DNA of 64,000 nucleotides from Vulcanimicrobiota bacterium (GTDB taxonomy: Bacteria > Vulcanimicrobiota > Vulcanimicrobiia > Vulcanimicrobiales > Vulcanimicrobiaceae). Shown here in pieces: positions 12,600 to 26,055 of the stretch; the stretch's first letter is position 1, and each line of letters opens with the position of its first letter. The position numbers and the translations under genes are program-made. Under the pieces are notes generated by a model that saw only the letters and a program-made list of their open reading frames with translations, did no database searches and had not been told where the DNA came from. The stretch lies in the NCBI GenBank assembly GCA_027459645.1, contig DAIDHQ010000008.1, positions 62,001 to 126,000 on the forward strand, written 5' to 3'.

Positions 12600-12879
12600 C
12601 CGCACGATCGCTCTAAGCGGAGACTTGGATCTTGCGGTCAGAGAAGAATTACAGAAGCGCTTCGACGAGGCCGGACTCGCGGCGCATTACGTCACGCTCG
12701 ATCTGACCGACGTCAATTACATGGATTCGTCGGCGATCGGCGCGATGATCTTGTTGCACCGGCGTCTACGCGAAAAAGACGGCGAGCTTCGATTCCGGCT
12801 GCGAAAGAACGGCGCGTACCGGCTGCTGGAAATCGCCGGGCTAATCGCGGTCTTCCCGGTGGAAATCGTCGAGGACTAA
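12538..12879 (+). CDS. STAS anti-sigma factor antagonist (RsbV/SpoIIAA type)
   Basis: A 113-residue STAS-domain protein. The core 'TIALSGDLDLAV...YVTLDLTDVNYMDSSAIGAM' is that of RsbV/SpoIIAA; the second Ser in 'MDSSAIG' aligns with the residue phosphorylated by the anti-sigma kinase and dephosphorylated by the phosphatase encoded just upstream. An ATG at 12538 gives a normal-length protein but lies inside the phosphatase gene, so the two overlap by 62 bases in different frames; a start nearer the end of the upstream gene would truncate the first beta strand. Expected partners in the window are the RsbW-like kinase at 37.1-37.5 kb and the sigma factor at 49.7-50.4 kb. Its stop shares CTAA with the convergent mlaD-like gene. 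Confidence 0.85.
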   Translation: MDIILEENRPLESPPFADAPDRTIALSGDLDLAVREELQKRFDEAGLAAHYVTLDLTDVNYMDSSAIGAMILLHRRLREKDGELRFRLRKNGAYRLLEIAGLIAVFPVEIVED

Positions 12880-14480
12880 GGCAACTGCGCTTGAACGCCG
12901 TAGGTGAAGCGGCGTTCTGCATGATTGATCGCGCGCTCGCCGACGAAGATCTGCAAGCCGTGCGCGACGTTGAGATTTCCGTAGAGATCCAATTCGGGCC
13001 GCTGTAGGTCGAAGAGCCGGCCTTCCAAGCCAAAGACCTTCGCATTGTACTCGCCGAGCAATCCGAGTTGCGAATAGAGCACGCCCCCGCCAACGCGCAC
13101 GTGTTTGTTCATCGACTGGATGAGCGCGAGATTCGCGGTCGTTCCATGCCCGACGTCGTTCGCGCCCAGCAACAGGCTCGTCGACGAGCGCGGAAAGATC
13201 ACCGCATTCAAATCGCCCGAGGGACCTCGCGCATTCGTCAAGCGCGGATTGGGACAACAGACGGTCTGCGCGTTGAGCGCGCTCAGACGCAGCTGAATCG
13301 CGATGAGGTTGCGAGCGAGGCTCGCGAGACGGCGCTTGACCCGAATCTGAACCGGCGAAAGTCCGCCGTTTTTGTTCGTGGGGAACGGCGTGGCCACGCC
13401 TGCCGGGGGCGGGGTGACGTAGGGGTAAGGCGTGCCGTAGGCGCCGCTCGGTTGCGGAAACGGCGTCGCGCCTTCATCCACGCCGTAGACGCTGCTGGTG
13501 GCCCCAAAGGCGCCCAGGAGTGAATTTACGCGCTGCATCGCCGCGTCCGCATTGGCGATCGTGTTCTTCAACTGTGCTTGCGTCTGCGGATCGCCGGTAA
13601 CGTTGCGAAGATCTTTCGCGATACCACTCACGGTGTTCAAGGTGTCGGCGATGCTGTGCGCGCTCGAAATAATGTCTTGATGCAAGCCCTTATTGGTTAC
13701 GAGCGACTGCAGCGAAACGACGGACGCGTTGAGGGAGACGGTCGTCGTCTGCAGCTGCGTGAGGATTGCATTGACCTTGCGCGATGAAAGTTTCGTCGTA
13801 TCGTTGAGCGTGCCGGTGAGGGCGACGATGTTCGAGCTCGCCTGCGCGAGGCTAGACTGGAGCTGCGTCGACATCGTGGAGATCGCGTTCTTGGCCGTCA
13901 ACGTGAGATCGTTGGCGTTGTCGAGCGTCGTCTGCAGCGAGCTGATCAGTTGGGGTTCGCGGCGCTCGAGTTCGCCGAGCATCGCATCCAGCCGTTTGAT
14001 TTCGCCCTGGCCCTGCTGCAAGAGGTCGGCGATCGTCGCCGTGTTGGTTCCCTGCGGCTGTTCGTCGATCGGCAACACGCGGCGCTCCAGCGTCGCGACC
14101 GCGGGAGGCGCCGGCGTTGGACCGTAGACGCCGCGCGGACGCGGTTGCGGCACGGGAGGAACGATCAGCAGGTTCGGGTCGCCGGTCAGCGGAGCTTGAA
14201 TCAGAAAGCGCGACGCTTTTGGAATATCGACGTCGCGATTGATCGCGAGAATCACGTCGACCGTGTTGTCCGGCAACAGCGTGATCGAATCGACCGTGCC
14301 CACCGTGACGCCCGAGAAATAGACCATCGCGCCCGAATGCAAACCCGCCGCACTTTGGAAATGCACGCCGATCCGATACCCGGTGTGCCGCGTACCGAAA
14401 TCGGTGATCACGTAGAACACGCCGAATAGCAGCAAGAGCGCCAATAATGCAAATGCGCCAACCTGCGCCTGCTTACTCAT
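12876..14480 (-). CDS. MlaD-family MCE protein with long C-terminal extension
   Basis: A 534-residue periplasmic lipid-transport component. It has a membrane anchor (about 7-28), then one MCE domain (about 38-118, including 'GAMVYFSGVTVGTVDSI' and 'ILAINRDVDIPKASRF'). A Pro-rich stretch follows, then about 160 residues of amphipathic helix rich in Ser/Thr/Gln/Leu, as in proteins whose helices form a tunnel across the periplasm. A second Pro/Tyr/Thr-rich linker leads to about 150 residues of beta-rich sequence at the C terminus. E. coli MlaD ends soon after its MCE domain, so this form is closer to PqiB/Mce-like tethered proteins. It should act with the MlaE permease and MlaF ATPase encoded upstream, from which it is separated by a 196-base gap with a structured element. 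Confidence 0.85.
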   Translation of the reverse strand: MSKQAQVGAFALLALLLLFGVFYVITDFGTRHTGYRIGVHFQSAAGLHSGAMVYFSGVTVGTVDSITLLPDNTVDVILAINRDVDIPKASRFLIQAPLTGDPNLLIVPPVPQPRPRGVYGPTPAPPAVATLERRVLPIDEQPQGTNTATIADLLQQGQGEIKRLDAMLGELERREPQLISSLQTTLDNANDLTLTAKNAISTMSTQLQSSLAQASSNIVALTGTLNDTTKLSSRKVNAILTQLQTTTVSLNASVVSLQSLVTNKGLHQDIISSAHSIADTLNTVSGIAKDLRNVTGDPQTQAQLKNTIANADAAMQRVNSLLGAFGATSSVYGVDEGATPFPQPSGAYGTPYPYVTPPPAGVATPFPTNKNGGLSPVQIRVKRRLASLARNLIAIQLRLSALNAQTVCCPNPRLTNARGPSGDLNAVIFPRSSTSLLLGANDVGHGTTANLALIQSMNKHVRVGGGVLYSQLGLLGEYNAKVFGLEGRLFDLQRPELDLYGNLNVAHGLQIFVGERAINHAERRFTYGVQAQLP

Positions 14481-14533
14481 TGCTTAGACTCTTACGCAGC
14501 GCCACGAAATAAGCCTATCCCAACGCGCGCTTT

Positions 14534-14672
14534 GGACCACCGCCACCTTGCCGAGCAGGCGGCTCCGAACGAGCCGCGGAGCCAGGATGGCGGGAACCGC
14601 GACGAAGGCAGCAGGAGCTTTCCAGGAGGGAAAAGCGAGGAGCGTCGACGGCTCGGCAATGCGGCGTGGTCC
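14534..14672 (-). repeat. Imperfect-palindrome structured element between mlaF and mlaD
   Basis: Two arms at 14534-14556 and 14651-14672 can pair over about 21 base pairs. They contain a perfect GGACCAC/GTGGTCC outer helix and a perfect TTGCCGAGC/GCTCGGCAA inner helix, separated by a short stretch with one bulge, one wobble and one mismatch. Inside lie two overlapping, mutually exclusive hairpins (14559-14577, and 14561-14583) and a third at 14617-14636. It occupies most of the 196-base gap in an otherwise tightly packed operon. It could be a mobile palindromic repeat (REP/MITE-like), a structured RNA leader for mlaD, or a processing site. I can see the pairing; the role is unknown. Confidence 0.6.
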
Positions 14673-14676
14673 ATAG

Positions 14677-15432
14677 TTAAATAGGAATTGGTCCAACTTC
14701 GGAACCCTGAATGAATTGCTGGACGATGGGATTGCTGCTCTTGCGGATCTCGTCCACCGTGCCGTAGGCGATGATCGCACCCTCGAAGAGCATGGCGACG
14801 TAATCGGCCATCATGTAGATCGACTGCAGGTCGTGCGAGATGACGACGGCCGTTCCGTCCAGCTTCTGCCGCAGGCGCACGATGGTATCGGTAATGAGGT
14901 GCGTGACGATGGGGTCGAGGCCGGTCGTCGGTTCGTCGTAGAGGACCAGGTCGGGCTTGGTCACGATCGCGCGCGCAAACCCGGCGCGCTTGAGCATCCC
15001 GCCCGAAAGCTCGCTCGGCATGCTGTCGTAGGTGTGGGCCAGCCCCACCGAATCGAGCGCATCTTCAACCGTCTTGCGGATTTCGGCATCGGTCATCTGC
15101 GTGCGCTCGCGCAACGGCAACGCGACGTTATCGCCCACCGTCAGACTGTCGAGCAGCGCCGCAAACTGAAACGAGAGGCTGATATGGCGGCGCACGTCGT
15201 TCAGGTGCGCTTCGGGCATGTGGCAGATGTCCGCAGTGCCGATGTAGACGTGTCCGAAATCGGGCTTGCGCAGGCCGTCGAGCAAGCGGACGATCGTCGA
15301 CTTACCCGCGCCGGAAAGTCCGATGATGCAGGTGATCGCGCCCTTGACCACGTCCAAGCTGCAATTCTTCAAAATCACCCGATCGCCGTACATCAGCGTT
15401 ACGTCGTCGAGGCGCGCGTATACGTCGGCCAC
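14677..15432 (-). CDS. mlaF: ABC transporter ATP-binding protein, MlaF type
   Basis: A 251-residue ATPase that energises MlaE-type lipid transport at the inner membrane. It has Walker A 'IGLSGAGKSTIVRLLDG', a Q-loop in 'LSFQFAALLDSLTV', the signature 'ELSGGMLKRAGFARA', Walker B 'DLVLYDEPTTGLDP' and the switch His in 'VVISHDLQS'. The 'GGM.KR' form of the signature and the following spacing are typical of MlaF/Ttg2A. The start is GTG at 15432: the preceding mlaE stop and this start overlap as TAGTG, so the genes are translationally coupled. A longer reading of the same frame runs into mlaE and is not coding there. Confidence 0.93.
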   Translation of the reverse strand: MADVYARLDDVTLMYGDRVILKNCSLDVVKGAITCIIGLSGAGKSTIVRLLDGLRKPDFGHVYIGTADICHMPEAHLNDVRRHISLSFQFAALLDSLTVGDNVALPLRERTQMTDAEIRKTVEDALDSVGLAHTYDSMPSELSGGMLKRAGFARAIVTKPDLVLYDEPTTGLDPIVTHLITDTIVRLRQKLDGTAVVISHDLQSIYMMADYVAMLFEGAIIAYGTVDEIRKSSNPIVQQFIQGSEVGPIPI

Positions 15433-23962: not shown

Positions 23963-24958
23963 CTACGCTGCCGGAGCGTCGGGAACCAGGACGATCTTCC
24001 CCACGTGCTCCGACGATTCCAAGCGTTCGTGCGCCTGGGGAGCCTGCGAAAAGGTGAAGAGCGAATCGACGAGCGGGCGAATCGGCTCCCGGGCAGGCAA
24101 CAGCGGCCAAATGTTCGTTCGCAAACCCATAGCAATCGCCGCTTTTTCGGCGTCGGTCCTCGGGCGCAAGCTCGAACCCAAGAGGGTCGCTCTGCGCTGC
24201 AGGAGATATCGCAGGTCGATGGTCGCGCTCTGCCCGCCGGCCGTTGCGATGCAAGCGATGCGCCCGTCCACCGCGAGCGCTTCTAAATCACGATTGACAT
24301 ACGCTCCGCCGACGATGTCGAGGATCGCGTCGACGCCGCGCCCGTGCGTGTACTCGCGGACGCGCGCGACAAAATCGTCGCGCTTATAGTTGATGCACTC
24401 TTGCGCACCGAACTCGACCGCCGCGCGGCATTTCTCGTCGCTTCCGGCCGTCGCGAAGGGATGCGCGCCGATGGCTCGTGCGAACGCAATCGCCGTCGTC
24501 CCGATCCCGCTCGTTCCCCCATGGACGAGCACCGTTTCACCCGCACGAAGCCGCGCGCGCACGAGCAGGTTGTCGTAGACGGTGAACGCATTCTCGGGCA
24601 GCGTCGCGCCTTCGATAAACGACCAGCCGTCCGGAAGCGGCAGCACTTGGCCGGCCGGTACGGCGACGAATTCGGCGTAGCCGCCGCCGTTGCACAGTGC
24701 GACGACCCGATCGCCGACTGCCACGCCCTCGACGCCGTTTCCGGCTGCGACGACGGTGCCCGCAACCTCGAGGCCCAGGATCGGCGATGCGGCCGCCGGC
24801 GGCGGATACGATCCGGCACGCTGCAGAGCGTCCGCGCGCGATACGCCCGCCGCTTCCACTTCGATCAAGACCTCACCGCGTGCGGGGAGCGGTTGCGGAG
24901 CTTGCGCGACGTGCATCACGTCCGGGGGGCCAGGTTCGCGCACCGCCACATACTTCAT
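23963..24958 (-). CDS. NAD(P)H quinone oxidoreductase, zeta-crystallin/PIG3 type
   Basis: A 331-residue medium-chain dehydrogenase/reductase without the zinc ligands of alcohol dehydrogenases. It has the GroES-like N-terminal domain ('VEAAGVSRADALQRAGSYPPP', read in two parts around position 40-60) and a Rossmann domain with 'HGGTSGIGTTAIAFARAIGA', the PIG3-type nucleotide motif. Such proteins reduce quinones or enones with NADPH. It is the last gene of the long minus-strand operon, starting within the end of queA (ATGA overlap). Confidence 0.87.
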   Translation of the reverse strand: MKYVAVREPGPPDVMHVAQAPQPLPARGEVLIEVEAAGVSRADALQRAGSYPPPAAASPILGLEVAGTVVAAGNGVEGVAVGDRVVALCNGGGYAEFVAVPAGQVLPLPDGWSFIEGATLPENAFTVYDNLLVRARLRAGETVLVHGGTSGIGTTAIAFARAIGAHPFATAGSDEKCRAAVEFGAQECINYKRDDFVARVREYTHGRGVDAILDIVGGAYVNRDLEALAVDGRIACIATAGGQSATIDLRYLLQRRATLLGSSLRPRTDAEKAAIAMGLRTNIWPLLPAREPIRPLVDSLFTFSQAPQAHERLESSEHVGKIVLVPDAPAA

Positions 24959-26055
24959 GAAGCATCCTTCGGGTGCGATCCCGCGCGTCCCGTCAAGAAC
25001 ATCGCGTCACCGAATGAAAAGAATCGATACGAATGCGTAACGGCTTCGCGGTATGCATGCAGAATGGTTTCGCGCCCGGCAAACGCGCTCACCAGAACCA
25101 GCAGCGTCGATTGCGGTAGATGAAAATTCGTAATCATCGCGTCGACGACGCGAAACGTAAAACCCGGCCGGATAAAGATGGACGTGCTACCTTCGCCGGC
25201 TACGATCTCTCCGTGTTCGGCGGCATTGCCCTCGAGCGCGCGCACCACCGTCGTTCCCGCCGCTATGACGCGGCGGCCGGATCGCTTTGCGCTACGGATC
25301 GCCTCCGCGGTCGATGCCGGGATGTCGTAGCTTTCCGCGTGCATCGCGTGCTCTTCGAGCCGTTCGCCCTTCATGGGCCGGAAAGTACCCAAACCAACGT
25401 CAAGTGTGAGGTGCACGCGCTCCACGCCCACCGCGTCGAGCGCCGCGAAGACCTCCGGCGTAAAGTGCAGCGACGCGGTCGGGGCCGCGACGCTTCCCGG
25501 CGTTCTGGCGAAGACGGTCTGATAGCGCCGCTGCGCCTCGTCGGAGTCGTTGCGGATATACGGGGGCAGCGGTAGCCGCCCCGCCTTCTCGAGGAAGCTC
25601 TCGAACGGCATGGCGATCTCAAACCGCAGCACGCGCACGCCGTCGGCTTGCACCTCTTCGACCACGGCGCAGCCCAGATCGCCGAAGCTCACGACGGCAC
25701 CTTCGCGCAGGCGGCGCGCCGGCCGCACGAGCGCCGTCCAGCGCGTCGAGTGCGCATCGTAGCGAAGTCCCGATGCGGGATGCAGCAACAAGATCTCCGC
25801 GGAGCCACCGGTCTGCACACGTTTGCCGAAGAGCCGGGCCGCGATGACGCGCGTTTCGTTGAGCACGAGAACGTCGCCGGCGCGCATGACGTTGGGCAGG
25901 TCGCGAAAGATCTTGTGCTCGATCGACGCGCCTCGCACCACCATCAGCCGGCTCGCGTCGCGGACGGGGGCCGGATGTTGCGCGATCAGTTCTTCCGGGA
26001 GCTCGAATGCGTACGCCGAGGTGAGCGAGGACGTTTCGCCGTCCGTCTGGTGCAT
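24955..26055 (-). CDS. queA: S-adenosylmethionine:tRNA ribosyltransferase-isomerase
   Basis: A 366-residue enzyme that transfers and isomerises the ribosyl group of SAM to 7-aminomethyl-7-deazaguanine in tRNA, making epoxyqueuosine. Clear marks are 'FELPEELIAQHP', 'GDVLVLNETRVIAARLFG', 'RYQTVFARTPGSVAAPTASL' and the C-terminal 'TNFHLPQSTLLVLVSAFAG'. The start at ATG 26055 fits the family N terminus; the frame continues upstream without homology. It lies 11 bases after the PilZ gene. No tgt, queF or queG homologue is present here. Confidence 0.96.
   Translation of the reverse strand: MHQTDGETSSLTSAYAFELPEELIAQHPAPVRDASRLMVVRGASIEHKIFRDLPNVMRAGDVLVLNETRVIAARLFGKRVQTGGSAEILLLHPASGLRYDAHSTRWTALVRPARRLREGAVVSFGDLGCAVVEEVQADGVRVLRFEIAMPFESFLEKAGRLPLPPYIRNDSDEAQRRYQTVFARTPGSVAAPTASLHFTPEVFAALDAVGVERVHLTLDVGLGTFRPMKGERLEEHAMHAESYDIPASTAEAIRSAKRSGRRVIAAGTTVVRALEGNAAEHGEIVAGEGSTSIFIRPGFTFRVVDAMITNFHLPQSTLLVLVSAFAGRETILHAYREAVTHSYRFFSFGDAMFLTGRAGSHPKDAS

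Follow-up and report, generated by a model that had tools for sequence, protein, structure and literature searches.

The palindromic element at positions 14534-14672 of the window, by which is meant the whole 64,000-nucleotide stretch of DNA analysed here, is one of about 25 to 30 copies dispersed through its own genome. It probably belongs to a family of short mobile palindromic repeats, non-autonomous and class-wide in spread, one copy of which was inserted between mlaF and mlaD in this lineage. This reading is supported by the dispersed copies, from the lineage-specific presence of the element at mla, and from copies that lie in frame inside other genes. The initial annotation had listed a mobile palindromic repeat beside a cis-regulatory RNA and an RNase III processing site; it is the first of these that gained support, the mla gap of the relatives examined being without the element. 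A poorly studied bacterial phylum gains with it a dispersed structured repeat family without an Rfam entry: no Rfam family matched the element at the gathering score, and the only matches were tRNAs, elsewhere in two loci. Nor was the family found described in the literature searched on palindromic repeats and structured RNA of Eremiobacterota (Candidatus Eremiobacterota is a name listed by NCBI under Vulcanimicrobiota) or in that on dispersed structured repeats.

Copies, core and distribution of the family

A covariance model, R1, was built from 14 own-genome copies, the mla copy among them. Many dispersed copies in such a search had been named at the outset as the mark of a repeat family, and the own genome returned 25 places at E <= 4.3e-8, with five weaker ones reaching E 0.0016. 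In the window R1 matches once, at 14552-14655 (+), with 87.2 bits and E 1.1e-22; the next matches have E values of 0.75 and 0.85. Independently of the model, blastn with the mla copy as query recovers other own-genome copies, many of them partial, and it is the interior that is common to them, not the arms. A plain pattern for the hairpin 1 core, allowing up to two mismatches, occurs at 21 places in the own genome, compared to none for the reversed control.

The aligned core reads CUCUGAACGAG-N5-GGAGCCAGGAUGGCGAGA-N5'-GAGGA..GCAGCAGGAGC-[stem]-CANGGAUG-type loop-[stem']-GCGAGGAGC. The segments N5 and N5' co-vary across the aligned copies, as does the second stem. The family layout is a conserved core, with two hairpins bearing (A)NGGAN loops, set inside arms of 20-40 bp. 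Both sides have changed in 24 of 32 pairs among the 14 own copies, and the covariation score was reached by none of 500 shuffles, the copies not being phylogenetically independent and the shuffles and p values ignoring kinship. Among 89 copies of relatives both sides have changed in 29 of 32 pairs, in an alignment that was fitted to R1 and so leans towards the model. Compensatory changes had been proposed as the sign of an operon-specific RNA. The covariation is strong, but it belongs to the repeat family, and it cautions that strong covariation at a palindrome may be the property of a mobile repeat rather than of a local riboregulator.

The two inner hairpins are nearly identical in genome G021. 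One possible reading of the core is therefore a REP-like hairpin of roughly 30 nt, dimerised head to tail and enclosed in variable arms. Copies with a single hairpin exist (L017/L083, L312). At L069 (C28:248207-248356), L077, L078, L079 and L081 one inner hairpin is replaced or extended by another hairpin. The f3 form is longer: the copies L154-L166 (G045) also resemble one another over an additional 75-145 bp on the left side of the arm.

At E <= 0.001 the model finds the element in 78 of 148 relatives, all of them among the 109 genomes of the host's class, and in none of the 39 relatives outside it. A genome of the same genus (G001, 83% complete) carries one copy. Copy numbers in draft genomes are lower bounds, since assembly contigs end inside copies (G037 C76, C6 and C50; G007 C90; G064 C284). 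The strict core pattern had no match in GTDB r220 contigs, a set from which own or near records may be left out, and a looser 19-mer gave 40 stretches, 25 of which were run through the model. The same architecture was seen in MAGs labelled Candidatus Kuenenia (L302, E 7.6e-8; L299 and L308 weaker) and Planctomycetota (L279, E 4.5e-7; L306 weaker), labels that may reflect contamination or mislabelling. Several of the 25 are chance matches, and the stretches from Rhodospirillaceae (L281), Pseudohongiella (L283), Acetobacteraceae (L286) and Latescibacterota (L300) had no model match at E 0.01. Viral contigs held no match to the exact core pattern, and plasmids none to a Planctomycetota-type copy at an E limit of 1e-5.

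The folding strand and the apical loops

Tests on arms, gene context and gene ends used 28 own copies and 105 copies of relatives. Places fetched twice (L128, L142, L148, L174, L182, L186), copies truncated where a contig stops (L116, L117, L118, L147:1342) and two weak ones (L086:1279, L149:12580) were left out. The arms were aligned with Watson-Crick scoring only, so that G-U and A-C pairs cost the same. A symmetric DNA palindrome predicts equal numbers of the two. The ratio of G-U to A-C was 32:7 in the own copies and 115:24 in those of relatives, or 26:3 and 89:9 at strict settings; G-U pairs outnumbered A-C pairs in 71 copies, the reverse held in six, and 51 were even. The asymmetry indicates that the fold of one strand is favoured. 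Judged by these pairs, the favoured strand is the one with GCCAGGAUGGC; at mla this is the + strand, and the operon is encoded on the opposite one.

The excess of G-U is equally strong, 50:10, in 46 copies for which both neighbouring genes are antisense to the folded strand; read-through transcription of the host operon is therefore not what maintains the fold. The excess may instead stem from recent insertion, from transcription started at another promoter, or from a mobility intermediate of ssDNA or RNA. A replication-strand bias, with ssDNA of the lagging template as the folding molecule, was considered and dropped: 18 of 24 own copies have the folded strand on the G-rich strand (p 0.02), compared to 10 of 21 in four other genomes.

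Of 138 unique copies, 117 have a loop 1 of the form C(A)NGGANG, and 133 have GGA in that loop. Where a 7-nt loop 1 departs from this form, the changes fall at the free positions 2 and 6 (17 and 13 cases) and are rare at GGA (4, 0 and 1). Loop 2 conforms in 86 of the 138 copies and has GGA in 96, while 37 have CACGANG, which lacks GGA. The second stem of family f3 departs strongly from the others, yet its loop is still (C)TGGATG.

Hairpin pairs of this kind recall the ligands of CsrA. In the excerpted text of one source, CANGGANG apical hexaloops are high-affinity targets of CsrA/RsmE (PMC4894983), and csrA is present in the own genome and in 96 of the 148 relatives. The family might thus consist of CsrA-binding RNAs, each copy presenting two CsrA/RsmE-type apical loops and the transcribed copies titrating or localising CsrA. 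The convergence of both loops on C(A)NGGANG, with variation mostly before and after GGA, argues for this. So does the co-occurrence of element and csrA in the host's class, where 67 genomes have both, 11 the element only, 19 csrA only and 12 neither (Fisher p 0.008, ignoring phylogeny). Against it are the loop 2 variants without GGA, the 19 csrA genomes of the class without the element, and the 11 of 78 element-bearing genomes in which csrA was not matched, including the congeners G010 (97% complete) and G066 (90%). The strand bias is moreover undiminished where the two flanking genes are antisense, a setting in which read-through would yield no GGA strand, and the orientation of the element flips in place, as described below. 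CsrA binding by these loops is a lead rather than a demonstrated property, and as an account of the family it is considered unlikely.

The CsrB/RsmZ-type and flaA-type ligands, as far as the excerpt of PMC4894983 extends, resemble the element in having two or more apical loops of the (A)NGGAN type in each molecule. They differ from it in that no dedicated sRNA gene is evident here, many loop 2 variants lack GGA, and orientation is independent of transcription. A broader proposal, likewise doubtful, is that mobile palindromes carry a CsrA-type hairpin pair on a defined strand and act as a distributed CsrA sink, or that CsrA or another GGA-binding protein maintains or moves them; the arms would be rewritten by inter-arm conversion, the loops alone being inherited by sequence. 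If this were true, every insertion would plant a potential CsrA site at a gene end. The own csrA gene (G000:C12:23054-23209) lies about 1.6 kb from one rearranged copy (24852-24971).

Sites, mobility and the outer arms

The gene-context test lost five of the 133 copies, whose flanks were too short. Eight of the remaining 128 lie in frame inside genes, within open frames. Pfam, applied to one copy for each of three host genes, matched these to DNA_pol3_alpha (L065, DNA polymerase III alpha), S-methyl_trans/Pterin_bind (L068, a MetH-like homocysteine methyltransferase/pterin-binding protein) and IMS (L172, a protein with this domain of Y-family polymerases). The hosts of L093, L135 and L107 were assigned to the DNA polymerase III alpha gene by flank similarity and sequence. 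Both neighbours were called for 120 intergenic copies, and in 98 of these the gene lying on the 3' side has its end towards the element. The neighbour classes are L+R- in 52, L-R- in 46, L+R+ in 19 and divergent, L-R+, in three. The habit is REP-like: dispersed, downstream of genes (98 of 120 by a stop codon) and avoiding divergent gaps. Some copies lie within essential operons, such as infB-rbfA and nusG-rplK (NusG, IF-2 and RbfA by Pfam, rplK by eye). No gene family recurs beside the copies, except where the locus itself is the same.

One site could be followed across 18 genomes of a genus. The element is present in five readable loci, the site is empty (32-105 nt) in four, and other loci hold other inserts. 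At this site the cores of G109 and G097 are 99% identical, lie in opposite orientation and have different arms. The copies of G092 and G082 also face opposite ways and have matching arms, the outcome expected of recombination between arms. The comparison shows that a copy can be inverted in place within a genus. Cores at the same site are more alike within a genus (0.83-0.99), and across genera no more alike than cores at different sites, a pattern consistent with repeated insertion at favoured sites or with concerted evolution. A 139-bp tandem unit occurs in two copies in G021 and in a single copy at the corresponding place in G078, while the array is missing from a G070 allele.

Some observations do not favour the mobile-repeat reading. 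No excess of target-site duplications, no TA motif and no conserved terminus were found among the copies, and some sites are occupied in several genera, which could be retention for function, though the cores there are not more alike. Mobilisation by a RAYT was rejected for the own genome, which has no match to the Y1 transposase PF01797; the domain is present in 31 of the 148 genomes, only four of them in the own family f1 (G021, G028, G094, G107).

The arms extend beyond the model by a median of 22 Watson-Crick pairs in the 105 copies of relatives and 17.5 in the 28 own copies. They are specific to each copy, yet complementary. In pairs of own copies with cores more than 0.90 identical, the 5' arms are 0.62 identical, compared to 0.55 for unrelated flank. 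Six within-genus ortholog pairs showed 34 changed arm pairs, of which 18 were compensated to Watson-Crick pairs, nine became G-U, four A-C, two other, and one was broken. Between L176 and L188 there are 2-nt indels, seen by eye, that are matched in both arms. At L063 (own genome, C40:43671-43776) the 5' arm runs into the beginning of a gene that by eye is HAD-like. The 3' arm nearly copies this 5' arm in inverted orientation, a hint that flanking sequence can give rise to arms.

Quasi-palindrome correction by template switching could homogenise arms in this way with no selection, and the covariation would then be a DNA effect. The arms turn over far faster than the core, the indels are matched between arms, and the in-place inversions show that arms interact, all of which speaks for this reading. 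Such correction, however, predicts equal numbers of G-U and A-C pairs, at odds with the ratios given above, and the internal loops have remained unpaired and conserved; as the whole explanation it is quite improbable. For the mobile repeat, a mechanism can be proposed in which a trans-acting protein would bind one folded strand, as RNA or as ssDNA, reading its purine-rich internal loops and its pair of (A)NGGAN hairpins. Since the sequence of the outer arms would not be read, these arms would drift, and would be re-matched by selection for pairing, by inter-arm conversion, or by both. The family separates the parts conserved in sequence, the two NGGAN loops and the purine internal loops, from arms conserved in pairing only, and with this separation the reading protein and the matching of the arms become directly testable questions.

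Several known repeats resemble the family in part. REP elements and the CGTC- and GTAG-tagged palindromes, including RPE-4 and RPE-6, are described in the available part of PMC3733652 as dispersed, mostly in convergent or co-directional gaps and downstream of coding regions, with G-T pairs in their stems, intragenic copies that include DnaE2 genes, and some copies within longer palindromes. The present family shares the habit of lying at gene ends, in convergent or co-directional gaps, the G-T pairs, and the copies in DnaE2 (PMC3733652, same part). It differs in being a three-way-junction composite, with two hairpins in copy-unique arms of 20-40 bp. The REP/RAYT palindromes are single, of 20-40 bp, and carry their tag, GTAG or CGTC, outside the stem. 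The element is about 140 nt long, and many copies have GCAG or GTAG at the foot of hairpin 2, in paired columns. A further difference is that the own genome is without a Y1/RAYT, and few genomes of its family have one.

Rickettsia palindromic elements, in the accessible text of PMC2229807, are long stem-loops of 105-146 bp, intergenic or in frame inside conserved protein genes; they are alike in size and in having in-frame copies (PMC2229807). The terminal inverted repeats of RPEs, on the same partial account, are common in sequence, whereas here the core is common and the arms are not. Bacterial MITEs such as Correia/NEMIS, ERIC and RUP are, in that text, also shorter than 200 bp, non-autonomous and folded like RNA (PMC2229807), but conserved terminal repeats, TA ends and target-site duplications were not found among the present copies. 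Membership in the MITEs was rejected, since the arms are near background identity even in own copies with cores above 0.90, and there is no excess of target-site duplications. The pneumococcal BOX elements are dispersed, modular and structured, and some are transcribed (PMC3049150, as excerpted). BOX varies in the number of modules, according to that excerpt, whereas here arm sequence and hairpin insertions vary.

Two other repeats were encountered at these loci. A separate 167-bp repeat with terminal inverted repeats (L149:8926-9092) is a MITE candidate: it occurs about 30 times in G021, and G078 and G070 show exact empty sites. A repeat of the type CTTCGACAAGCTCAGG(G/A)TGACA, absent from the window, flanks the element array (L149:12470-12500 and 12965-12996) and abuts an element arm (3' flank of L063); a related sequence lies inside the element of G082 (L230).

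The copy between mlaF and mlaD

The palindromic structure at mla is real. Folding and the R1 match confirm that arms at 14534-14556 and 14651-14672 pair and enclose hairpins, and blastn agrees on the element as a whole. The 5' arm has a locus-specific sequence, not common to other copies. By the family's G-U/A-C asymmetry, the folded (core) strand is the +, whereas mlaE-mlaF-mlaD are encoded on the -. The folding energy of this strand is -73.6 kcal/mol (z -2.45; as good in four of 200 dinucleotide shuffles) and that of the - strand -74.4 kcal/mol (z -3.95; none of 200). Inner hairpins were described correctly in the initial annotation; its count of three, two of them mutually exclusive, is amended to the two of the family form, with apical loops at 14581-14591 and 14622-14630. 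Hairpin 1 has the apex GCC-AGGAT-GGC (14581-14591, +; loop type CNGGANG), and hairpin 2 (14617-14636, +) the loop CAGGAGG at 14623-14629. The alternative hairpin arises because helix P2b, the family pairing N5/N5', is broken in this copy, where CCGCG faces ACCGC and pairing is incomplete.

The gene names given earlier hold: by gene calling and Pfam, mlaF (14677-15432, -) matches ABC_tran PF00005 and mlaD, the downstream operon gene (12876-14480, -), MlaD PF02470, while the product of mlaE, also on the - strand, matches MlaE PF02405. The gap of 196 nt within the operon, from the mlaF stop at 14677 to the mlaD start at 14480, also stands. The 98-residue frame at 14484-14780 was rightly judged non-coding, as a codon-based caller trained on the window calls no gene there. 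Only 4 nt separate the 3' arm from the stop codon of mlaF (14677-14679 on the - strand); the median arm-to-stop distance in the family is 17 nt. A promoter/terminator scan found no promoter-like site. Its single terminator-like site, at 14706-14690 (-), is weak and does not exceed what shuffles yield.

In a relative of the same genus the mlaF-mlaD gap is 46 nt, compared to 196 nt here. Among 29 mla loci of relatives the gap could be measured in 28 (L196 has no mlaD match and hence no gap value), and is 6-119 nt in 27. The R1 search found the element in no mlaF-mlaD gap of the 29, and gave two weak matches (E 0.04 and 0.09) in these loci, outside the gap. On this comparison the mla copy is a lineage-specific insertion. 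P2b no longer pairs fully, the copy runs antisense to the operon, and the mla gaps of relatives lack it; it is most likely a tolerated passenger, and its only likely effect would be to place a long hairpin in the mlaF-mlaD mRNA.

An effect of the copy on mRNA stability or processing is possible. A long hairpin between two operon genes could serve as a site for RNase III or another processing enzyme, by analogy with the NEMIS repeats, for which such a role is proposed in the part of PMC2229807 at hand. The transcribed (-) strand, however, is the one not under pairing selection, and a processing site is a rather improbable account of the element. A cis-regulatory RNA specific to mla, tuning MlaD relative to MlaE/F, was suggested by the place of the element within the operon and the 196-nt gap, but is extremely improbable given its absence from all 29 mla gaps of relatives, its antisense orientation, its degenerate P2b helix and the about 25 other copies that adjoin unrelated genes. 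One relative, at L199 (G031), has a gap of 195 nt, which is without the element, yet holds palindromic stretches of its own.
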